A stretch of 56,414 nt of DNA from a virus, in IMG/VR virus record IMGVR_UViG_3300005253_000563, positions 1 through 56,414 of that record, one strand, 5' to 3'. Under the pieces are notes generated by a model, which did not search any database, was not told the origin of the DNA, and worked only from the letters and a program-made list of their open reading frames with translations. Below, in pieces: positions 18,964-49,866 of the stretch. Every line of letters begins with the position of its first letter. Within the stretch, counting starts at the first letter, position 1. The position numbers and the translations under genes are program-made.

Positions 18964-19173
18964 ATGCCAGAACACCAGAAACAACCAACGTGCCAGATTT
19001 GCGGCGGTCTGATCAAAGGCAAGCCCTACTACTGGGATGATAACTCTCTACTGCCTATGCATGCGAATATGACACGATGCCAAGGTAACGGCAACGTACT
19101 ATTTGTTGCCTTCATGAATCGGAACGTTGAGTACATTAACAGACGCGGGGAGCCCGTTCTGTTGGAGGTGTAA
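18964..19173 (+). CDS. Small zinc-binding hypothetical protein
   Basis: 69 residues from ATG 18964, after GAGGTGTAAC. TCQICGGLIKGKPYYWDD resembles the first knuckle of LIM-type zinc folds; HANMTRCQG supplies further ligands. Function unknown. Confidence 0.5.
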   Translation: MPEHQKQPTCQICGGLIKGKPYYWDDNSLLPMHANMTRCQGNGNVLFVAFMNRNVEYINRRGEPVLLEV

Positions 19174-19174
19174 C

Positions 19175-19402
19175 ATGCCGATACTGAGAGACGTTACGGA
19201 TCAAGAGGTGCCCGCCGCATTCATAGAGGCGATCAGGCACCCAAGAAGCGGGCGCTGCCTCCTCTGCGGGTATCCCTTGGTAGGCGAGAGCTGCCTAGGT
19301 CGGTGCTTATCAGGAGATTGTGTCTGCTGCAAGACAGGGGGCAATAGTGTGCTCCCACACGAGGAACCTTCACAAGAAGGAAGACTAAACGATGATGCTT
19401 GA
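19175..19402 (+). CDS. Cys-rich hypothetical protein
   Basis: 75 residues from ATG 19175, with GGAGGTG upstream. Eight Cys in the middle (CLLCGYP, SCLGRCLSGDCVCC). The first 15 bases of the gene match TGCCGATACTGAGAG of the promoter element at 14359-14373, which may be chance or a cryptic site. Function unknown. Confidence 0.5.
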   Translation: MPILRDVTDQEVPAAFIEAIRHPRSGRCLLCGYPLVGESCLGRCLSGDCVCCKTGGNSVLPHEEPSQEGRLNDDA

Positions 19403-19583
19403 GTCCATCCGAATGGCGATACTCCTCAGGAGATGGCAAATCCATTGTCGTCAACAGGATCACCCAAACACAGCTACGTACCGCCTACACAACAACACGT
19501 GTATCATCGAGTGTACGCAAGAAGGACTCTACCTATGTGGATGGATGGCTGTGGCTCCTTCCTTCAGGCCTGCACCCGAATAG
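19392..19583 (+). CDS. Small hypothetical protein
   Basis: 63 residues from ATG 19392 (AAGGAAG upstream), overlapping the previous gene by 11 bases. Basic start (MAILLRRWQIHCRQQ), then NNTCIIECTQEGLYLCGW with three Cys. Not recognised. Confidence 0.4.
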   Translation: MMLESIRMAILLRRWQIHCRQQDHPNTATYRLHNNTCIIECTQEGLYLCGWMAVAPSFRPAPE

Positions 19584-19599
19584 TAGAAAGGACTAGACG

Positions 19600-19800
19600 A
19601 TGAACACACGACACTGTTCGAACGATCCATGTGAGGCTGAGGCTGTAAAGGTAACGGTCACAGACGCACTCTTGTGTTGGACATGCGCTGAAGCATACCA
19701 GTGGGGACAGGCGTCGCCAGATAATCCCCTAAGAGAACTAGACAATGACAGTTGGAAGTCAGTCAAAAACAGTCCTTATCTCAAGGGCATGACGTTCTAG
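19600..19800 (+). CDS. Small zinc-binding protein
   Basis: 66 residues from ATG 19600. HCSNDPCEAEA and LLCWTCAEAYQWG form a four-Cys site typical of the small zinc proteins in this cluster. Acidic helical tail. Function unknown. Confidence 0.5.
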   Translation: MNTRHCSNDPCEAEAVKVTVTDALLCWTCAEAYQWGQASPDNPLRELDNDSWKSVKNSPYLKGMTF

Positions 19801-33314: not shown

Positions 33315-34368
33315 CCCAAAGGAAGTCATTGAGCGCCTGCAAAAGAGCGACGGCGACCTAACGGTACAGTTAGGGCGTGAGGGGGACATTATTGCGGAGC
33401 CCACAGGGTATGTCAGCACTCGTTGCCCCGTTCTGGACTTTCTTATTGGGCGTCCTGGTGTTCCTCTTGGGGGTATTAGTCTCTGGATTGGTGCCTATGG
33501 TTCAGGAAAAAGTACTATTTGTTTGAACATCTTGGCTGAGATACAAACTAGAGGCGGACTAGCTGTAGTGTTTGATACTGAGGGCAGGTTTTCCTTCTCA
33601 AGAGCAGAGAAGTTTGGTATTGACCTAGATAAGCTTATCATTGCTCAACCTGATACCTTAGAGGAACTATTCAAGGGCTTGAAGAGAATGATTGAGGCCA
33701 TACGAGACGGTTCTTTTGATCAGGATGTGGTTATTGTAGTAGACGGTATTGCTGGGGCTCCCCTAGAGAAGGAAGCGAAGGGAGAGAAGACCGCCTTAGG
33801 CGCACAGTCCCTCCTCATCAGGAAAGAGTTGAGAGTTCTGACCATGCTGGTCAATCGGCAGCGTATTGGGCTGGTCATCACCACGCAGCCTAGGCAGAAG
33901 ATCAACCTTGGAGGGTTTACGCCATCAAGGACAAGTTGGATGGGGGAAGACCCTTTAGGTCACGCCGCCTTGACCACCATCCTACTAGAGAAGAAATCTA
34001 AGATCGGCGATGACCCTGCTAGTCCTATAGGGCATGTCCACCTTGCCACCCTGATTGACACCCGTATTGCTGGTTGCACTGACCCCGAGTGTAAAACCTG
34101 CTGCCGTAAGGACTTCAAGAGGACGTTTGATTTCTACAGTGCTACAGGGCCAGACTTCTATGGCTCTGCTCTGGACGTATTGATGGAGGCGGGAGAGATA
34201 ACCCACACAAGTGGTTGGTACCGCTTCCGTGACCCTGAGAAGAAGGAGAAGGGGTTCCGTCGTGACGACTTTGAGAAGGTGCTGATGGATAAGCCTGAGA
34301 TTCTAGAGGCTCTATCGGTTATACTACAGGGGGGCCATCCTCCTGTTGAGGAAGAGGAGAAAGAGTAA
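33307..34368 (+). CDS. RecA/UvsX-like recombinase
   Basis: 353 residues from ATG 33307. Walker A GAYGSGKST (~63-71), the following LAVVFDTEGRFS strand with the catalytic Glu, and Walker B VVIVVDGIAG. It forms filaments on ssDNA for strand exchange and replication restart. It carries an unusual Cys cluster near residue 258 (GCTDPECKTCC) not present in typical RecA, perhaps a zinc knuckle. It is flanked by SSB upstream and split SbcC/SbcD downstream, a recombination module. Confidence 0.85.
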   Translation: MTDPKEVIERLQKSDGDLTVQLGREGDIIAEPTGYVSTRCPVLDFLIGRPGVPLGGISLWIGAYGSGKSTICLNILAEIQTRGGLAVVFDTEGRFSFSRAEKFGIDLDKLIIAQPDTLEELFKGLKRMIEAIRDGSFDQDVVIVVDGIAGAPLEKEAKGEKTALGAQSLLIRKELRVLTMLVNRQRIGLVITTQPRQKINLGGFTPSRTSWMGEDPLGHAALTTILLEKKSKIGDDPASPIGHVHLATLIDTRIAGCTDPECKTCCRKDFKRTFDFYSATGPDFYGSALDVLMEAGEITHTSGWYRFRDPEKKEKGFRRDDFEKVLMDKPEILEALSVILQGGHPPVEEEEKE

Positions 34369-34374
34369 TAAACA

Positions 34375-34656
34375 ATGAATAATGAATATAACACAGAGTT
34401 AATAAAGGGCAAGTATATGGATGCCAGTGCGGTTCCTATCCAACATATCTTTCAAGAGTATGCTTGGTGGGGAGATGCCGTGGCCACTCCACCCGGATGC
34501 GCTTATGAAATAAAACTCATTGCTGGGGGTACTGATATAGATAATCTCTCTTCAGCTGTACGAACGAAGATCAAGAAGCACTCACTGAGCGGCCACTTAC
34601 GTGTCGCACGACGCCGTGACCGCCTCTTCATTATAAATGCTGCCTCTGTGGAGTAG
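34375..34656 (+). CDS. Small hypothetical protein, tandem paralogue 1
   Basis: 93 residues from ATG 34375. Shares YAW, ATPPGCAYE and an R-x-R-x-F-I/V-N end with the next gene, so the pair arose by duplication. Basic C-terminal half (RVARRRDRLFIINA). Function unknown. Confidence 0.55.
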   Translation: MNNEYNTELIKGKYMDASAVPIQHIFQEYAWWGDAVATPPGCAYEIKLIAGGTDIDNLSSAVRTKIKKHSLSGHLRVARRRDRLFIINAASVE

Positions 34657-34661
34657 TAATA

Positions 34662-34925
34662 ATGCCTGAATACATAAGTATCAACGAGATTCCTGAACAC
34701 GGGAACGAGTCGGGTAAAAAGTATGCTTGGATCGAAGAGGTCTTGGCTACCCCGCCTGGGTGTGCTTATGAGGTAATAAGTGAAAAAGGGCACAAGACCG
34801 TAGCGAGTTCGGTACGGTATTTTCTTAGGAAACGGCAACCACAGGGACCTTTACGTATGGTATGTCGTGGTTCGCGTGTCTTCGTCGTAAATGATTCGCC
34901 AGTTATGGGAGAGGATCAAGCTTGA
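34662..34925 (+). CDS. Small hypothetical protein, tandem paralogue 2
   Basis: 87 residues. Same ATPPGCAYE core as the preceding product, then RYFLRKRQPQGPLRMVCRGSR. Its stop lies inside the palindrome TCAAGCTTGA shared with the stop of the antisense HNH gene. Function unknown. Confidence 0.55.
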   Translation: MPEYISINEIPEHGNESGKKYAWIEEVLATPPGCAYEVISEKGHKTVASSVRYFLRKRQPQGPLRMVCRGSRVFVVNDSPVMGEDQA

Positions 34926-35434
34926 TGAGGGCAGGTACCGCATTGGTATTTAGCACTGTTGCAGTTGAAACAGAGAACTTGAATGTTTTCTGTAGGGTAC
35001 CCCTTGGCCTTCAAGGTGCTATAGAGTGAGGTACCTAGGGTTTTCGAGCTACTGGGCTGTTCTCGCCCGTCAATGTGGTCGATTGTAAGAAATTGTATTG
35101 TATGTTCACCACAACAAGCACATTTGCCGCCGTAAGCGTTCATCGTTTCCTCCTTCAGGCGTTGTCGCCAAGTTTTATTATTTGTTTTGGCTTTACCCGA
35201 GCAATTATCGCACCTCGTTGTGGTGGTGGAGGGACAAAGACCACATTGAGTACAAGTTCCCTCTTGAAGACGTTTCTTTCGGCGTTGGGCTGTTTTTACC
35301 CCATCCCGAGCGTGACAGCTATTGCAGGTGGTTACCTTCATTCTTTCACGGGGATGGCCGCATTGCGAGCACAGTCCTTGATCAACTCGGGTTCTGTAAT
35401 ACTTTTGCATATACGGTTGTGTATTCTTAGGCAT
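34916..35434 (-). CDS. Free-standing HNH endonuclease, antisense to the replication operon
   Basis: 172 residues from ATG 35434. Three Cys knuckles at the N-terminus (LCSQCGHPR, TTCNSCHARDG, TCTQCGLCPS...RCDNCSG), then the HNH core: CACCGEHTIQFLTIDHIDG, and VLCFNCNSAKYQCGTC. This is the layout of phage HNH homing endonucleases. It is the only minus-strand gene between 12.2 and 52.8 kb and has its own promoter, so it is probably a mobile insertion. Six bases separate the -10 box from ATG and no ribosome site is present, pointing to leaderless translation. Confidence 0.8.
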   Translation of the reverse strand: MPKNTQPYMQKYYRTRVDQGLCSQCGHPRERMKVTTCNSCHARDGVKTAQRRKKRLQEGTCTQCGLCPSTTTTRCDNCSGKAKTNNKTWRQRLKEETMNAYGGKCACCGEHTIQFLTIDHIDGREQPSSSKTLGTSLYSTLKAKGYPTENIQVLCFNCNSAKYQCGTCPHQA

Positions 35435-35440
35435 ATTCAC

Positions 35441-35469
35441 AGTATATCACTAAAAGGAGGTGTTGTCAA
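35441..35469 (-). promoter_or_regulatory. Sigma70-like promoter of the HNH gene
   Basis: Minus strand TTGACA (35469-35464), exactly 17 bases, TATACT (35446-35441). The expected start falls on or next to ATG 35434. The site overlaps the ribosome site of the plus-strand gene starting at 35470. Confidence 0.8.
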
Positions 35470-36441
35470 GTGCCTACTACCTACGCTCGCTTGAGCCGTA
35501 TCCACATAAAAAACTTTCAAAGCGTGGAGGATGCTACTCTAGAATTGGGCAATCTAACCTGCTTGGTGGGTGCGGGCGATTGTGGTAAGTCAGCCTTCCT
35601 CCGAGCAATACGTGCTGTCTGCCTCAACGATGCTGTAGATGAAGACATTCGTCACGGCACTAAGCAGACTGAGGTGACCTTAACCTTCGAGGATGGTACC
35701 GAGATTATATGGAGCAAAGCCCTCAAGAAGGGTGGCTGCTACCGTATGGGGGACACTGAGTACAATAAATGTAATGGCCAAGTTCCAGAAGCCATAGCTG
35801 AGTATCTAGGTATTGGTAGTATTGAGGTAGACTCAACTACTACCTTGACTCCCCAACTTAGCGATCAACATGACCTGCCTTTCATCATCATGGAAACGGG
35901 CTCCAAGAGGGCGCGTATCCTGGGGAAGGCCACCCGTCTAGACCTTGTAATCACTGCCCAGATGCAGTGTAAGAAGGAACTAGACCAGACTAGACGGGCA
36001 GCGACAGAAGCAGCCACCAGCCTTACTATAGTTGAGGAACAGCTTGAAGCTATCCCCGATTATAAAGACATAGAGAACGACCTGAATGGGGTAGAGGGGG
36101 ATATCAAGACCCTTCAGGAGAGCCTTGAGCGTGCTGATCAGGCTGAGAATTTGGTAGATAGGATTGAAGAGGCACACTCAAGAGCAACAGCCTTGGATGT
36201 GGCTCCTCTCTATGCTAAGCTGGATGTAGCGGCTGAGTCTCTTGATAGGGCTGAGTGTCTTCAATGTCTAGCTAAGAGAATCCCCGAGCTGACGAAGGAG
36301 ATGGAAGATAGGGGTAAGAGGGTGGGTGACCACAAGGAAGCCTTGGAGAGTTTTCAAGAACAGTTGACTGCGACGTGTATAGAGGCCGGAATTTGCGAGG
36401 CCTGCAATGGCCTCCTGTCCCATGAGGAGTGTACAGGATGA
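35470..36441 (+). CDS. SbcC/Rad50-like ATPase, N-terminal half (Walker A lobe, coiled coil, zinc hook)
   Basis: 323 residues from GTG 35470 (AGGAGG upstream). IHIKNFQSVEDATLELGNLTCLV and GAGDCGKSAFLRAI (Walker A, ~34-41) are the start of an SMC-family ATPase. From ~170 on it is coiled coil (ELDQTRRAATEAATSLTIVE...). It ends ICEACNGLLSHEE, a CxxC like the Rad50 zinc hook. Signature and Walker B are absent; they are found in the separate gene at 38041. With the SbcD-like nuclease in between, it should process DNA ends for recombination. Confidence 0.75.
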   Translation: MPTTYARLSRIHIKNFQSVEDATLELGNLTCLVGAGDCGKSAFLRAIRAVCLNDAVDEDIRHGTKQTEVTLTFEDGTEIIWSKALKKGGCYRMGDTEYNKCNGQVPEAIAEYLGIGSIEVDSTTTLTPQLSDQHDLPFIIMETGSKRARILGKATRLDLVITAQMQCKKELDQTRRAATEAATSLTIVEEQLEAIPDYKDIENDLNGVEGDIKTLQESLERADQAENLVDRIEEAHSRATALDVAPLYAKLDVAAESLDRAECLQCLAKRIPELTKEMEDRGKRVGDHKEALESFQEQLTATCIEAGICEACNGLLSHEECTG

Positions 36442-36629
36442 GACGTATTATCGTCGGGCGTACGACTAGCAAACATCTATTCATACGGCTCACCGCCGCA
36501 TCAGGCTATAGCATTATAAAGGGGGAGTTAGTCTTCTCGTTGATCCCTGGAGATGCTAAATACCTAAGGGATGAGCTCGATACTTGTCTCCGTCTAGCTA
36601 ACGAGGAGGCAACGCCATCAAACTTCTAA
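36438..36629 (+). CDS. Small hypothetical protein
   Basis: 63 residues from ATG 36438 (ATGA overlap with the Walker A half gene). Beta-rich start (MRRIIVGRTTSKHLFIRL), then helix. Its end overlaps the probable start of the SbcD-like gene by 13 bases. Not recognised. Confidence 0.5.
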   Translation: MRRIIVGRTTSKHLFIRLTAASGYSIIKGELVFSLIPGDAKYLRDELDTCLRLANEEATPSNF

Positions 36630-37609
36630 TCTTCGGTGACCTACACATCGCAGACAAGCCTCCTGGTGGTCGTGTGGATGACTACGCCCAAACCATGCTA
36701 GGTAAGCTGGAGCAGATTGGCAGACTCTGTGAGAAGTACAAGGTGAAGTCTATTATAGGGCTGGGGGATATCTTCCATTTGAAGCAGCCTAATAGAGTTA
36801 GTCATGCTCTTACGCAAGCCCTTATTGTGGCTTTTAATAACTTCCCCACTACTCCTCTCATTGTCCCTGGTAACCATGACCTTGGCCCCGATGGGTTAGA
36901 CAGTCTACCTCGGCAGCCATTAGGGACACTTGTTCGGGCTTCGGCGGTAAAGCTTTTGCTCTCTATCAAAGACAGCAGAACAGGGGTCTGGCTTATCCCC
37001 CGTCCCTACAACGCTGCTGCTGAAGGAGTACACGATGACCAGGCTGACCCATCCTACTATAGTCTTACCGAAGAAGAGGAGGCACTCATTGCGAAGAATC
37101 CAGTTCCCCTTATTGGATTGGCCCACGGTTCTATCGTTGGTCCGGGAGACAGCCGTCCTTATCCCTACGTTAACGTGGACAAGATTCCCGGCATCGACCA
37201 GTACGATGCTTTTATCGCTGGACATCTGCATGAATGCTTGGGAGTCACAGAGGTAGGCAAAACCATTTTTGCTAACCCAGGCTCCATAGGCAGAACACGC
37301 AGGGACATGGCTAGCTACGCCCGTACAGTGGAGGTGTTGATAGTGACAGTTGATTCGGATGGACTGAAGGTAGAAGAGGTACCTCTCCCTGGTGTGGCTC
37401 CTGCCCTTGAGGTGTTTGGAGCGAGAGAAGTGGAGGAGGGGCCTGAGCTACAGGATGATGAGATCAGTAAGTTTGTTGAGATGTTAGGTGAGGGGTTGCC
37501 TGCTGAGAAGATGTCTCTCGCTGAACTGATGGCTCAGGATGAATTTAAAGACATAGAAGCGCCTGTGAAGGCAAAGGTTCAAGAACTTTTGGGAGGAGCT
37601 GAGTCGTGA
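36617..37609 (+). CDS. SbcD/Mre11-like nuclease, probable ATC start
   Basis: 330 residues. Metallophosphoesterase motifs in order: LLIFGDLHI (D-x-H, residues ~3-11), GLGDIFHL, VPGNHDLG, LAHGS and AGHLHE, with an acidic C-terminal domain. The D-x-H motif lies upstream of the first GTG (36674), so the gene must begin earlier. The frame is closed by TAA 36599, and the only well-placed candidate is ATC 36617, seven bases after GAGGAGG (36603-36609). It is the nuclease partner of the split ATPase genes around it. Confidence 0.8.
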   Translation: MKLLIFGDLHIADKPPGGRVDDYAQTMLGKLEQIGRLCEKYKVKSIIGLGDIFHLKQPNRVSHALTQALIVAFNNFPTTPLIVPGNHDLGPDGLDSLPRQPLGTLVRASAVKLLLSIKDSRTGVWLIPRPYNAAAEGVHDDQADPSYYSLTEEEEALIAKNPVPLIGLAHGSIVGPGDSRPYPYVNVDKIPGIDQYDAFIAGHLHECLGVTEVGKTIFANPGSIGRTRRDMASYARTVEVLIVTVDSDGLKVEEVPLPGVAPALEVFGAREVEEGPELQDDEISKFVEMLGEGLPAEKMSLAELMAQDEFKDIEAPVKAKVQELLGGAES

Positions 37610-37821
37610 TTAAAATGTTATACGCCTATCGTTATTTCCCTGCGGGCTGCATTGAGGAACGCTTGAATGAAGCCTATCAACGTGGCTGGAAGCTTCATAC
37701 CTTTTGCGATGTTACCAATCTTGAGGGTGTAATAGCTTCGGTAGTGTTCCAATGGGCTGGTACTCCGAGCACTGTTTGGCAGTCGCCTTTTGCAGACGAT
37801 GAAGAAGAGGGAGAAGAATGA
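37606..37821 (+). CDS. Small hypothetical protein
   Basis: 71 residues from GTG 37606 (GTGA overlap). YAYRYFPAGCIEERLNEAYQ, then a short beta segment and an acidic end (DDEEEGEE). This looks like small phage proteins opening with a strand and RLNEAYQRGWKL helix. Not recognised. Confidence 0.5.
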   Translation: MIKMLYAYRYFPAGCIEERLNEAYQRGWKLHTFCDVTNLEGVIASVVFQWAGTPSTVWQSPFADDEEEGEE

Positions 37822-38072
37822 TACCAACTAACATCGCTCAACTGAGGAAGGACATGGACTCCTGTCGCTCTGACCTGGCTAAGATTGAGGGACAGCAGGA
37901 GGGTGCAGAGACAGAGATTGCTGCTCTGAATAAGGAAGCCAAAGAGCTTGGTATTGAGCCAGACGACCTCCGTGAGGCGGCTGAGCGTATTATTGATGAC
38001 GTGCAGGAGGCGCTTGGTGTGGTGAGGGGAGAGGTGACTAATGTTACAGGACGAATTGACAGCGGAGATTAA
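37818..38072 (+). CDS. Small coiled-coil protein next to the split ATPase
   Basis: 84 residues from ATG 37818 (ATGA). One heptad-rich chain (IAQLRKDMDSCRSDLAKIEG, AEIAALNKEAKELG). It overlaps the 38041 gene by 32 bases. It could be part of the Rad50-type coiled-coil arm encoded as a separate piece; that is inference. Confidence 0.5.
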   Translation: MIPTNIAQLRKDMDSCRSDLAKIEGQQEGAETEIAALNKEAKELGIEPDDLREAAERIIDDVQEALGVVRGEVTNVTGRIDSGD

Positions 38073-38709
38073 CAACCTCCTCAGGCAGACAGGGACCAGT
38101 CGCCAACGTTGTCATGCTATGCGAGGTCAATGGGAAATGTTATCGTCCCAGAGTCAGACCTTAGTAGAGAAGCAGGCAGTCGCTGAAGACGAGGAGACTC
38201 TGCTAGCAAAGGCACAGGAGGTGCTGTATAGGTTAGAAGAAAGTTGGAGAGGTCACTACCAGGCGGGTCTGGCTGGGCTGGGTAGCCGTGGTCTAAATGC
38301 TGTCTTCACTGACGACGAGTATGAGGTGCTCCTAGAGTCCACCACCAAGCGAGGTGCTACTAGTCTAGACATCGTTCTGTCTAAGAATGGGCAGAGGGTA
38401 CGTCTCAAGGGTGGCTCAGGTGGTTCAATCATTCAGGTATTGGCGTACATCCTACGGCACATCACAACGACCACCCACCGCCCTGCGTTGCGTTCGTTTG
38501 AGGCCCTAGACGAACCCTTCTCTCAGGTTGCGGAGGAGCAGAGACCGGCTCTATGTGCTATGGTGAAGGACATAACACAACGTCTAGGATTTCAATCTCT
38601 CATCTCGTCCCATGAGACTGAGCTACTGGACGCTGCTGACGTGGCCTATCGTGTTCGTTCCGGTGGGAAGTTGGAACTGTTGAAGTCTGTTGGGGAGGAT
38701 AGGTCATGA
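38041..38709 (+). CDS. SbcC/Rad50-like ATPase, C-terminal half (signature and Walker B lobe)
   Basis: 222 residues from ATG 38041. A coiled-coil start (SQSQTLVEKQAVAEDEET) is followed by the ABC-type signature region RLKGGSGGSIIQVLAYILR (~120-138), Walker B SFEALDEPFSQ (~151-161) and the H-loop ISSHETE. No Walker A, so it can only complete an ATP site together with the 35470 product. Not a frameshift product, since four genes lie between the halves. Confidence 0.75.
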   Translation: MLQDELTAEINNLLRQTGTSRQRCHAMRGQWEMLSSQSQTLVEKQAVAEDEETLLAKAQEVLYRLEESWRGHYQAGLAGLGSRGLNAVFTDDEYEVLLESTTKRGATSLDIVLSKNGQRVRLKGGSGGSIIQVLAYILRHITTTTHRPALRSFEALDEPFSQVAEEQRPALCAMVKDITQRLGFQSLISSHETELLDAADVAYRVRSGGKLELLKSVGEDRS

Positions 38710-38840: not shown

Positions 38841-39195
38841 ACGCTCCACAGTAAACCAGAGTAAGGACGCAGAACGGGAGGTTGCTCGCCAGCTAGGCGG
38901 TAGGCGTCTCCACTCAGGTGAGTGGAAGCGTAAGAGTGGTGATGTCGATGTAATAGGAACTTTCTTCCTTGCTCAGGTCAAGCACCGTTCGGGGGTGCCT
39001 AACTACATTATTGAGGGAATGAATCAGATTCAGGAGGCAGCCACAGAACGAGAAGAACTACGGCGTTTGGAGCCAGGTATTGTTGCCCACCCCGATGCAC
39101 TTCTAGTCCTACGAACAAAGCCAGGACAAGGGAAGCCGTCTAGGACTTTCGTGATTCAAGAGATTGAGGACTGGCTACGTGAACCGAGTCCGTGA
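38833..39195 (+). CDS. PD-(D/E)XK nuclease, Holliday-junction-resolvase-like
   Basis: 120 residues from ATG 38833. AEREVARQLGGRRLHSGEWK, then SGDVDVIGTFFLAQVKHRSG: the D...QVK arrangement fits the PD-(D/E)XK core with Gln in the third position. The size fits phage resolvases or VRR-NUC-like nucleases. It sits between the recombination genes and the polymerase and probably resolves branched DNA before packaging. Confidence 0.6.
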   Translation: MSRRSTVNQSKDAEREVARQLGGRRLHSGEWKRKSGDVDVIGTFFLAQVKHRSGVPNYIIEGMNQIQEAATEREELRRLEPGIVAHPDALLVLRTKPGQGKPSRTFVIQEIEDWLREPSP

Positions 39196-41818
39196 GTGTG
39201 ACCGCTGTCCTGCGTTAGTTAAATGCCGCAAGAACATAGTGTCTGGGGCGGGTATTGACGACGCTGGAATAGCCTTTGTCGGTGAAGGGCCAGGCCAAGT
39301 AGAGAACGATAAGAACCGCCCGTTCGTGGGCAAGGCTGGACGAGTCTTGAAGACGATTGAGTGGGCTGCTGGTATCAACCAATTTAAAGCATATCACTGT
39401 AATGCTACGCGTTGTTGGGGCAAGCGTAACCCTAAGGCTGAGGAGATAGACGCCTGCCACGACTACCTCATTGAGGAGCTGAAGGAACTCAACCCGAAAG
39501 TAATCGTAGCTCTTGGGGGTGCGGCTCTCCGTAGCTTATACAAGCCAGGGACTACCGTAGGTTCGGTGATGGGGTTCACTCTATACAATGATGAACTTCC
39601 AGGTATACCGATAATTGGTACCTATCATCCTTCATACATAATGAGAGGACACTGGGGTGAAGTGGCTCTGGTACTCTCCCACTTCCGCAAGGCTAAGCGC
39701 ATTGCTGAGTCTGACGAGTGGAAGGAAGAGTTGGGCTCCTATCTTGGGATCACCACCCTTGAGGAGTTACGTGCTTTGAGGGACTACCTGCTGGGGCCAG
39801 AGGTTGATTTGTTGGCCTTAGACACGGAGACTTGCGGACTCTCATGGATGGATGATGAGCTTCTTTGTGTTTCCCTGTCAGGGGAGCGAGGTACGGGCTA
39901 CAGTGTGCCCATCCTCCATCGAGGTGAGCGGACGGTGACGACAGCGAAGGGAAAGAGCAAGAAGGAGTGGTGGCCTGTCCCCTACTGGAAATTGGATAAG
40001 GAGATGCCTGAAGTCCTCACCATTCTTGGTGAAATTCTTAGTTCAGATGTACCAAAAGCAGGGCAGAATATAGGATTTGATCTCCGAATGTTGGAGCGTC
40101 GCTCTGATGAGCAGGTCGTAACAGCTAAGACTGCATTCGGTTTCGAGGTCAATAATATGGTGCATGACACGAAAATGCTGAGTTCGTTAGTATCTGAGGT
40201 GAGCCCTGCTAACCTCACGGCCCTATGTGCCTACTGGACTGACCTGCCTTTTTACGAAGAGGAAGTCAAAGATTTTAAGTCAAAAATGTGGCACGTCCCT
40301 GATGAAACACTCTGGATATATGGCGCGGCGGATGTAGACGTTGTGCAGGAGCTTGTACCTGTCCTTCATCCTAAGGTACAAGAAGAGAATGCGGATTGGG
40401 TTTACGAGAATATCTCTATTCCCCTCATCCGCTGTGCTACGAAGATGGAAGAGCGAGGAGTCTACATCGACCGAGAATACTTCGACCGGCTCTGTCTCTA
40501 CTACAGAGACCGTCTAGTGGAGCAGAAAGCAGAACTAACAGAGGCGCTTGGTCGAGAGGTGGAGAAGCCCTCCTACTACAAAACAGTGCAGAAGGTTCTA
40601 TTTGAGGACTTAGGCCTGCCTTTAACGAGTAAGCCAGCCAAGGGAGCACTCAAGGACTGTGAGGCTTGTAAGAAGACTTGGAGCCCTTGCTCTCCGAAGC
40701 ACGCCTCTACTAGTGCTGCTGACTTAGAGGAGTTGAACGAACGCTCTCCTCATCCAGTACTGCCTCTCTTCATCGACATCCGTCATACTGAAAAATTCAG
40801 CAGCACCTACATGGACGGCGGTGAAGGTGGGGGGATGAAGGCTTACATCCGAGAGGATGGGCGTATCCATCCTAGCTGGAACGCAGCACGGGCAGCCTCA
40901 GGGCGCTTCACTTGCACCGACCCGAGCCTCATGACCATGCCTAAGGAGGTAGTCATTGATAGTGATAAGTACGACATCCACTCTAAAGACGCTATTCGTT
41001 CTATGCTCATTGCTCCTCCTGGCTATGGCCTGTTTAATGCGGACTGGAGTCAGGCGGAAGTTTTTGTCATGGCTTATGAGAGTGGAGACGAAACTCTTCT
41101 CAACCTTCTCTTAGAGGGGGTTGATGTGCATGCCTATGTAGCTCGTGAGCTTTGTAAGCTAGGGGCCTCCAGTAAGTTCCCTCGCGAGGCTGTAGACGAA
41201 ACTCTTTCTCTTGTGGACTGGCAGGAGGCACATCCCGATCTTAGAGGACGAGGTAAACCATTCGTTTTTGGTATGAACTACGGTCTGACTATAGAAGGCG
41301 CGGCGGAGAGGCTAAATTGTTCTAAGGAAGAAGCGGCTCCTCTCTTGACTCACTACACTGGCCATATCTTCCCTAAGATGGCCCCGTATCAGTTACGTAT
41401 TCGAGAAGACATGTTCGAGTACGGATCGACAAGCAACAAGTTTGGGCGTAGGGGACACTACCCCGAAGTGCCTATCCTTGCTGCGCTCAAATTCAAGGGA
41501 GACTTGGAGGGGGTCATTCGCCAAGGGTACAACCGACCTATCCAGAGTGGGGCTCACGACCTCCACAGCTTAGCCCACATCGCTACCGAAAGGGAATTGT
41601 CGAGCTTCGTTTTTCCCTGCCTCGAAATGCACGACAGCCTCATGGGCTACTACCCAGAGGGCAGGCAGGAGGAAGCGAAAAATGCTATACTTAACCTCTG
41701 GGGCGACGTGGCACGTAACACTGTCCTATCCTCAGGGGAGAAACTAGGCTGGAAAATCCCTGTTGATGTGCAAACGGGGCACAGTTTTGGGGAGCTAGAG
41801 GTGAAAGAAGATGGCTAA
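39179..41818 (+). CDS. Uracil-DNA glycosylase fused to family A DNA polymerase
   Basis: 879 residues from GTG 39179, chosen because GAGGA lies eight bases upstream. Residues 1-~190 are a family 4-type UDG: ECDRCP, FVGEGPGQVE, RPFVGKAG, four Cys placed as Fe-S ligands (CDRC, TRC, DAC) and GTYHPSYIMRG. A 3'-5' exonuclease follows (ALDTETCGL, QNIGFDLRML, YGAADVD). Polymerase motifs: A NADWSQAEV (~620), B RGRGKPFVFGMNYG (~690, Phe at the 762-type position) and C EMHDSLMG (~815, Ser instead of the usual Glu). Replicative polymerase. UDG fusion is known from SPO1-type phages. Confidence 0.9.
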   Translation: MNRVRECDRCPALVKCRKNIVSGAGIDDAGIAFVGEGPGQVENDKNRPFVGKAGRVLKTIEWAAGINQFKAYHCNATRCWGKRNPKAEEIDACHDYLIEELKELNPKVIVALGGAALRSLYKPGTTVGSVMGFTLYNDELPGIPIIGTYHPSYIMRGHWGEVALVLSHFRKAKRIAESDEWKEELGSYLGITTLEELRALRDYLLGPEVDLLALDTETCGLSWMDDELLCVSLSGERGTGYSVPILHRGERTVTTAKGKSKKEWWPVPYWKLDKEMPEVLTILGEILSSDVPKAGQNIGFDLRMLERRSDEQVVTAKTAFGFEVNNMVHDTKMLSSLVSEVSPANLTALCAYWTDLPFYEEEVKDFKSKMWHVPDETLWIYGAADVDVVQELVPVLHPKVQEENADWVYENISIPLIRCATKMEERGVYIDREYFDRLCLYYRDRLVEQKAELTEALGREVEKPSYYKTVQKVLFEDLGLPLTSKPAKGALKDCEACKKTWSPCSPKHASTSAADLEELNERSPHPVLPLFIDIRHTEKFSSTYMDGGEGGGMKAYIREDGRIHPSWNAARAASGRFTCTDPSLMTMPKEVVIDSDKYDIHSKDAIRSMLIAPPGYGLFNADWSQAEVFVMAYESGDETLLNLLLEGVDVHAYVARELCKLGASSKFPREAVDETLSLVDWQEAHPDLRGRGKPFVFGMNYGLTIEGAAERLNCSKEEAAPLLTHYTGHIFPKMAPYQLRIREDMFEYGSTSNKFGRRGHYPEVPILAALKFKGDLEGVIRQGYNRPIQSGAHDLHSLAHIATERELSSFVFPCLEMHDSLMGYYPEGRQEEAKNAILNLWGDVARNTVLSSGEKLGWKIPVDVQTGHSFGELEVKEDG

Positions 41819-48657: not shown

Positions 48658-49866
48658 ATGCCCGGTAAATTTGTTATATGCACCATAGAGGGCTGCAATG
48701 AGGATGTAGCCAAAGGTCGGCTCAAATACTGCTCCGATTCTTGTCGCAAGAAGTTTGCTCGTCGCCGACACGAGGACGGGGTTAATATCAAAACAACAGA
48801 CGAGCGGGTTGAACGTGAGCGACAGAAGATGCGTGCTGAAGAGGACAAGAAGCTCCTCAAGAGCCTAGCTCGAAGTGAGGCTAAGCGTGAACTGTACGTC
48901 AGCGCCGTTCAGGAGGCGCTCAGCGCGTTTAAACCTAGTACCCCTCGTCCCTGGCTAATCAAACAGGATAGAACGACTGACGTGGACTGGGAGATTGATA
49001 TATCCGATTGGCATGTGGGCCAGAGTACACCACAGGAGACTACAGGGGGCATGTACGAGCAGACCACCGAAATCGTGCAGAAGCAAGTGGATAGCCTCCT
49101 ACATGCTATGTCTCTTATCTATCATGAAGCCAATGGTAAGCGGGTGAAGCGCCTCTGGGTTAACATCATGGGCGATCTGATTGAGAATGATAACATGCGT
49201 CCCTCTCAACTTAGAGAGATTGACCTTCCTGTAGTGAAGCAGACTATTGTAGCTTACGACCTTGTGAGTTATTTTTTACGTACTTGTTTGGAGATGCCTG
49301 GTCTTGAAGAATTGGTTGTGGATATTTCGGGGGGTAACCATGATCGCACCACACAGAAAGCAGGGAATGCAGGCCTAGGCGAATCAGATTATGTCGATTG
49401 TTTCTCCTTTATCATAGGGGAGTTTATCAAACGGGGGTTCGAGGATGATCCCCGAGTCAGTGTTACTAACTGGGAGACTTTCTTTGGTACCCGAGAGTTT
49501 GGGGGTATTCGCCATGTCTTTGAGCATGGGTCCAGCATTAGAGGTAGTGGAGGTTCCTACGGGGGCATCCCCTTCTACCCAATCATCAGGGCGGCACAGC
49601 AGTACGAGTCCATGTTGGGTGGGGTCGATATGGTACACTTTGGACACCTACACACTCCGTACCTACTACCCCTCGGTCAGGATGGTTGGGTGGTGGGGAA
49701 CGGGGCACTACCCGCTACGTCCACGTTCGTACAATCCCGCTACAAGAAGATACGCCGCCCACAACAGTGGCTTATCGAGTTTCACCACAGTGTAGGAGCC
49801 ACCAAATTTGAGCCGCTCTACGCAGACCTAGGTCTACCAAAGCCTGGGGATGTGTGGAAGAAGTAA
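48658..49866 (+). CDS. Calcineurin-like metallophosphoesterase with N-terminal zinc finger
   Basis: 402 residues from ATG 48658. CTIEGCNEDVAK and YCSDSCRKKFARRR form an N-terminal zinc knuckle, followed by a charged helix. The phosphoesterase core shows DISDWHVGQ (D-x-H, ~116), NIMGDLIEN (~171), ISGGNHDR (~228), VFEHGSS and VHFGHLHTP (~330), a complete two-metal site. Probable phosphodiesterase or nuclease; substrate unknown. Distinct from the SbcD-like protein in lacking its capping domain. Confidence 0.8.
   Translation: MPGKFVICTIEGCNEDVAKGRLKYCSDSCRKKFARRRHEDGVNIKTTDERVERERQKMRAEEDKKLLKSLARSEAKRELYVSAVQEALSAFKPSTPRPWLIKQDRTTDVDWEIDISDWHVGQSTPQETTGGMYEQTTEIVQKQVDSLLHAMSLIYHEANGKRVKRLWVNIMGDLIENDNMRPSQLREIDLPVVKQTIVAYDLVSYFLRTCLEMPGLEELVVDISGGNHDRTTQKAGNAGLGESDYVDCFSFIIGEFIKRGFEDDPRVSVTNWETFFGTREFGGIRHVFEHGSSIRGSGGSYGGIPFYPIIRAAQQYESMLGGVDMVHFGHLHTPYLLPLGQDGWVVGNGALPATSTFVQSRYKKIRRPQQWLIEFHHSVGATKFEPLYADLGLPKPGDVWKK

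Follow-up and report, generated by a model that had tools for sequence, protein, structure and literature searches.

The virus contig IMGVR_UViG_3300005253_000563 of IMG/VR (56.4 kb, possibly a genome fragment), which was analysed over its full length of 56,414 nucleotides (the window), very probably encodes a naturally split SbcCD (Mre11-Rad50) complex. Rad50/SbcC is normally one chain that folds back at the zinc hook. In the window the chain lies open behind the hook, and its N-terminal half (N-half), its C-terminal half (C-half) and a short coiled-coil protein (the coil) are encoded by separate genes, with the gene for an SbcD-type nuclease between the halves. Six open reading frames (ORFs) on the same strand follow one another from 35470 to 38709:

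35470..36441, + strand: SbcC/Rad50 N-half, 323 aa, with N-lobe, helical arm and CEAC hook
36438..36629, + strand: small ORF, 63 aa, function not assigned, probable filler between N-half and SbcD
36617..37609, + strand: SbcD/Mre11-type nuclease, 330 aa, with ATC as the probable start codon, preceded by GAGGAGG
37606..37821, + strand: small ORF, 71 aa, function not assigned, probable passenger
37818..38072, + strand: likely arm subunit with a gene of its own, 84 aa, a coiled coil whose two helical stretches flank an LGIEPDD turn
38041..38709, + strand: SbcC/Rad50 C-half, 222 aa, with descending helix, GGSGGS, EALDEPF and SHE

All of the ORFs named in a first-pass annotation of this DNA were present where it had placed them, and a purine-rich stretch lies upstream of each of the locus genes. 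Library profile searches returned no significant family match for either the 63-aa or the 71-aa ORF.

Motifs and profile matches of the two halves

The N-half starts with a GTG codon behind a strong ribosome-binding site, AAAGGAGGTG, and contains the Walker A motif GAGDCGKS and a probable Q-loop at Q133, the two elements of an SbcC/Rad50 N-lobe. At the tip of its arm, 11 residues short of the C-terminus, residues 309-312 form a CEAC motif that is predicted to bind zinc. In an alignment of 14 N-halves G34, G39, K40, Q133, C309 and C312 are invariant. The C-half has neither Walker A nor CxxC and carries the signature, the Walker B with its catalytic glutamate and the H-loop of an SbcC/Rad50 C-lobe; G127, G128, D157, E158 and H191 are invariant in 16 rows, and the signature reads GGSGGS or xGGG instead of LSGGQ. 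The motifs are thus those that the first-pass annotation had read, namely Walker A, arm and terminal CxxC in the one half and GGSGGS, LDEPF and SHE without Walker A in the other.

In the library searches the N-half matched Pfam AAA_15 (5.7e-11) and AAA_23 (2.4e-10), both above the cut-off, and PHROG_16465 (2.8e-28), and the C-half matched PHROG_15167 (6e-10). A profile built from the window N-half and its first relatives retrieved Rad50 from the PDB at 1.5e-9, and the C-half profile had a Rad50 chain B as its top match at 2.5e-9, in P. furiosus entries with separate chains for the N and C segments; the two profiles match chains A and B, respectively, of 1f2t, 1ii8 and 3qkr. Since profiles specific for each half retrieve Rad50 and the same set of genes recurs in many unrelated genomes, the split set is not due to chance. 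The AlphaFold2 model of the N-half (pLDDT 70) shows an N-lobe and long helices, with structural matches to SMC, RecF and Rad50 N-lobes, and in the C-half, modelled with AlphaFold at pLDDT 80, one long helix precedes a lobe whose best VIA match is Rad50 1f2u_B (Z 9.2 over 133 residues, rmsd 4.1).

SMC heads have the same fold as the window halves, and we considered whether the locus encodes an SMC protein. This was rejected, as there is no hinge-sized domain in the N-half, the coil or the C-half and the N-half stops 11 residues past its CxxC. Anti-phage ABC ATPase systems (OLD/GajA, LmuB and others) were likewise rejected, since the N-half matches cover the shared P-loop region only: among the PADLOC matches listed, those of the N-half fall within about the first 100 residues, the coil has one weak match to an LmuB coil, and the C-half and SbcD have none.

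Reality of the split

A frameshift or assembly error can be excluded by the genes that lie between the halves, by L001, a second contig that is nearly identical, and by the relative L002, which is 36% identical in the C-half and has the gene order N-half, SbcD, coil, C-half as in the window; the first-pass annotation had also held that the split is not a frameshift. Insertions often break phage genes, and the N-half is closely preceded by an HNH endonuclease-like gene (34916-35440, minus strand), so that the halves could be decayed, non-functional remnants of a single-chain sbcC. However, the ATPase and nuclease motifs are all intact, each piece has its purine-rich upstream stretch, and the split is kept among phages and plasmids sharing about 20-36% protein identity, the halves being retained even where they lie far apart; we hold decay to be extremely improbable. 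The recurrence of the hook-broken design in distant phages and giant plasmids, with some copies re-joined in reverse order, argues instead for an ancient and functional form of SbcC and against gene damage.

The HNH gene itself is missing from L001 (L001:3162-3471), whose identity to the window ends at 34340 and restarts at 35512, within the first N-half codons, as if the stretch 34340-35512 had been replaced by a homing event.

The SbcD nuclease

The SbcD product matches Metallophos_2 (2.1e-9) and Metallophos (3.5e-8), and if translation begins at 36617 it has the complete set of SbcD/Mre11 metal ligands (DxH, GD, GNHD, H and GHxH), with H10, D51, N86, H87, H170, H203 and H205 invariant in an alignment of four rows. 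No ATG, GTG or TTG precedes position 36674 in this frame, and a start at the GTG there would drop the DLH motif, whose histidine is invariant; we therefore propose that SbcD probably starts at the ATC at 36617-36619, behind GAGGAGG. The SbcD of L002 begins with ATG; in that protein (L002:4608-5573) the sequence AHCLH stands for the GDLH of the others, which turns one metal-ligand aspartate into cysteine. The SbcD gene adjoins the N-half gene or is fused to it, and the two products may be in physical contact.

Conservation among phages

Besides the window, at least 30 viral or prophage loci have these parts, as do giant plasmids, and all four genes (N-half, coil, C-half and SbcD) co-occur in about 40 loci. 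The C-half of Bacillus phage vB_BboS-125 was used to retrieve the IMG/VR loci L009-L035, several of them near-duplicates, and 27 of 27 have the complete set. In vB_BboS-125 the N-half, coil and C-half are gp32, gp34 and gp35; its SbcD gene, at L004:8256-9236, is missing from the annotation. Microcystis phage Mvi-JY20 and L044 have the order N-half, SbcD, coil, C-half, and a 485-kb phage holds all four genes inside 9 kb. The parts can also be scattered. In Tunturi_5 the N-half (126949-128406, minus strand), coil and SbcD lie together and only the C-half (19071-19736, plus strand) is distant, about 107 kb away on the opposite strand, and in Magritte all four are dispersed. Many phage and megaplasmid records label the coil and C-half as hypothetical protein, ParA or ATPase.

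The first-pass annotation had named a second full-length SbcC elsewhere in the genome as evidence that would count against the split. We looked for one in this record, which may be a fragment, and found none: a search with PF13476 gave one N-lobe in the window record, and the 14 relatives tested had one each at most, the N-half of Tunturi_5 being missed by the PF13476 model and recovered by alignment A6. No N-hook-C single chain of this family was found at any locus seen, and the two halves and the coil are separate genes where SbcC/Rad50 would have N-lobe, arm, hook, arm and C-lobe in one chain. The C-half family also matches in 8 of 14 control genomes, so that no prevalence figure is given. 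A scan of genome contigs with the C-half returned ordinary ABC transporters only (L040, L041), and viral scans with the C-halves of Mvi-JY20 and Tunturi_5 gave no matches.

Re-fused forms on plasmids

Two kinds of fusion were found on plasmids. In five Bacillales plasmids of 127-722 kb, from Paenibacillus (two), Aneurinibacillus, Geobacillus and Brevibacillus, SbcD is followed by the N-half in one protein of 801-937 aa that has CPVC or CPIC near its end. Downstream, separate genes encode a coil of 88-96 aa and a C-half of 212-216 aa. These plasmids (L065, L066, L067, L068 and L072) have neighbouring genes in common in various subsets, among them a helix-turn-helix gene, an ATP-binding protein, an A24 peptidase, a SAF-domain gene and a T2SS/T4P ATPase, which suggests that they are one related plasmid group.

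In proteobacterial megaplasmids the protein begins with the C-lobe, continues with N-lobe and arm and has a CxxC near its C-terminal end, and this was verified in seven cases: Pseudomonas pMPPla107, Vibrio, Variovorax, Bosea, Alteromonas, Aeromonas and Acidiphilium. Library profiles place SMC_N positions 143-215 at residues 136-212 of the pMPPla107 protein (L071) and AAA_23 positions 2-176 at residues 239-516, giving the same permuted order, and 21 plasmid records match this protein. By its sequence, the C-lobe-first fusion is a natural circular permutant. The first-pass annotation had suggested a search of relatives for a fused single-chain homologue; the canonical N-hook-C fusion did not appear, and the fusions that did are SbcD with N-half and the permuted C-lobe with N-half. 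Since the N-half is linked with SbcD in the one type and with the C-lobe in the other, the fusions point to one machine.

A small coil-like gene lies directly upstream of the permuted genes, with a short ORF in between in Aeromonas; by profile it is a clear coil in Acidiphilium (1.2e-8) and a weak match in Bosea, and elsewhere it is assigned by position and a similar turn. SbcD lies downstream, with intact motifs in Variovorax, Bosea and Acidiphilium and degenerate ones in the four gammaproteobacterial cases. The genes at the SbcD position in the latter (L071:4823-5731, L073:5944-6816, L076:5635-6411 and L077:5857-6630) have lost the nuclease motifs, including GNHD, and those of the alpha- and betaproteobacteria retain them.

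The permuted fusion also bears on whether a single chain might be restored after expression, by RNA trans-splicing or a split intein. The possibility arises because phages are known to have split inteins and interrupted genes. Yet an ordinary hook and a short tail close the N-half, the C-half opens with a start codon and a helix, inspection of the ORF ends by eye revealed nothing intein-like, Rfam shows no catalytic intron in the window, and the opposite order of the permuted fusion implies that the canonical chain is not needed. We give restoration a probability close to negligible.

The coil and the arm

A homologue of the coil stands beside the C-half or the N-half in nearly all relatives (profile E-value 2.8e-18, with the window row itself in the profile), and its gene is separate in every layout, fusions included. 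The lengths in the window fit a third piece of the arm: the N-half has 323 aa and the coil and C-half together 306 aa, compared with 636 aa for the single-chain SbcC of Twort, whose hook is at 323. The coil is thus likely to be a piece of the arm, as its coil character, its usual place beside an SbcC half and the length match suggest. That its gene stays separate even where other parts are fused, and that the arm lengths are unbalanced in many relatives, would suit a regulator or loader within the split complex instead; we regard this role as a real possibility, although one of somewhat less than even probability.

The first-pass annotation had the two halves joined at the zinc hook, and here the data speak otherwise. 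CxxC is absent from the C-half and the coil in every row examined, and because the C-half has no CxxC the hook can pair only two N-halves. In every N-half that has a CxxC the chain break lies a short way behind it. Two N-halves lack the motif, L047:1504-2556 (Magritte) and L052:1138-2199 (minus strand), and another relative, L054, retains CPTC; the hook has probably been lost in part of the Magritte group.

Proposed assembly

On the split SbcCD reading, the N-half and C-half would associate non-covalently to form one ABC-type ATPase head, with Walker A and Q-loop from the N-lobe and signature, Walker B and H-loop from the C-lobe. On ATP, two such heads would close around a dimer of SbcD, just as the heads of ordinary SbcCD do. 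The N-half would form the rising arm that ends in the CxxC hook, two N-halves pairing via zinc at the tip, and the N- and C-halves would meet via the head lobes and arm pairing, with the returning strand made of the N-terminal helix of the C-half and, most likely, the 84-aa coil. The complex may trim or open DNA ends for phage genome recombination and replication. The proposal in the first-pass annotation of a natural multi-piece SbcC with the coil as third piece is strongly supported by comparison, namely by the co-occurrence of the genes, the lone N-lobe, the fusions and the matches of each half in the PDB.

The fusion of SbcD to the N-half only in the Bacillales plasmids could also be taken to mean that a homodimer of the N-half is by itself the ATPase partner of SbcD, and that the C-half and coil have another role. 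But the N-half has no signature, Walker B or H-loop and hence no complete ABC site, and the missing motifs are supplied by the C-half, which is encoded a short way behind in these plasmids and joined with the N-half in the permuted forms, so that we consider an N-half acting alone very unlikely.

Several observations weigh against a split SbcCD as drawn here. The N-half model is of middling confidence, with residues 117-154 poor, and the Foldseek and VIA scores fail to distinguish Rad50 from SMC heads, the Z-scores being middling too; the argument for Rad50-type halves is carried by the sequence motifs and profile matches and not by the structural Z-scores. Zinc pairing is not universal, as the N-halves of Magritte and L052 have no CxxC. 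Furthermore, the N-side arm in many relatives is far longer (hook at about 435-507) than the coil and C-half helix, and therefore a simple paired hairpin cannot span the full arm there and the arm pairing must differ.

Elsewhere in the window, a second exonuclease-like gene lies at 48658-49866 (PHROG_284 at 8.4e-39, with a weak match to PHROG_704, DNA repair exonuclease), and a DNA polymerase (PHROG_17) at 39164-41818, the first ~180 residues of which resemble, by eye only, a uracil-DNA glycosylase-type domain.

Relation to known systems and descent

The window locus has in common with canonical SbcC/Rad50 and SbcD/Mre11 pairs (E. coli SbcCD, T4 gp46/gp47, T5 D13/D12 and Twort RncB/RncA) the motifs, the arm, the CxxC hook and the metallophosphoesterase partner, and in the PDB both halves match best to Rad50 or the related SMC heads. 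It differs in the chain, which in canonical SbcC is single with the hook in mid-chain, as in Twort; in the window N-half, coil and C-half together make up a chain that is interrupted past the hook. The N- and C-lobes are likewise separate polypeptides in the P. furiosus Rad50 structures 1f2t, 1f2u, 1ii8 and 3qkr, which we take to be truncated constructs made for crystallography; those constructs are hookless, whereas the separation in the window is natural and retains arm and hook.

The PHROG library holds the two families as separate entries, PHROG_16465 (exonuclease) for the N-half and PHROG_15167 (ATPase, 211 aa) for the C-half, with no mention that they are halves of one enzyme. Fusions of Mre11 and Rad50 (SbcDC) have been described in Mimivirus, in plasmids and in Bacillus phage 0305phi8-36, together with two SbcDC cases that miss the P-loop segment of SbcC (PMC3175470). 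As in the Bacillales forms, SbcD is joined there to SbcC on plasmids and a phage, and 0305phi8-36 is predicted to be a case of SbcD fused to an N-half; the passages of that paper on these fusions describe no separate C-half, coil gene or permuted order. We found no description of a split or permuted SbcC in the open-licence literature, outside of which most subscription journals and preprints lie. What is new is the layout of the chain, and the function is most likely the known one of SbcCD.

A tree of the joined N- and C-lobes was calculated from 36 rows and 332 columns with four canonical SbcC proteins as outgroup. The split, SbcD-N and permuted forms all fall on one side and canonical SbcC on the other (100/100), and each fusion type is a clade nested among split forms, although with only four outgroups, long branches and an assumed root the tree is to be read with caution. 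The simplest reading would be one split followed by two re-fusions. A broader view is that these loci represent a separate Mre11-Rad50 branch, anciently split behind the hook in mobile elements, which gained an arm subunit and was re-fused in several ways, including the permutant, and in which the apex of the arm is open; taken jointly, we consider these statements plausible but rather less likely to hold than to fail.

Rad50, SbcC and the SMC proteins are viewed as folded-back single chains, and models of DNA holding and release by these proteins rely on the arm being continuous. A lineage without an unbroken chain, together with a permutant that ends at the hook, offers a ready test of which connections matter. 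The analysis also puts a name to two unrecognised subunits, the coil and the C-half, in many phages and megaplasmids. If the view of a separate, open branch is true, the open apex would allow the arm to be disassembled and rebuilt, for example in releasing or loading DNA.

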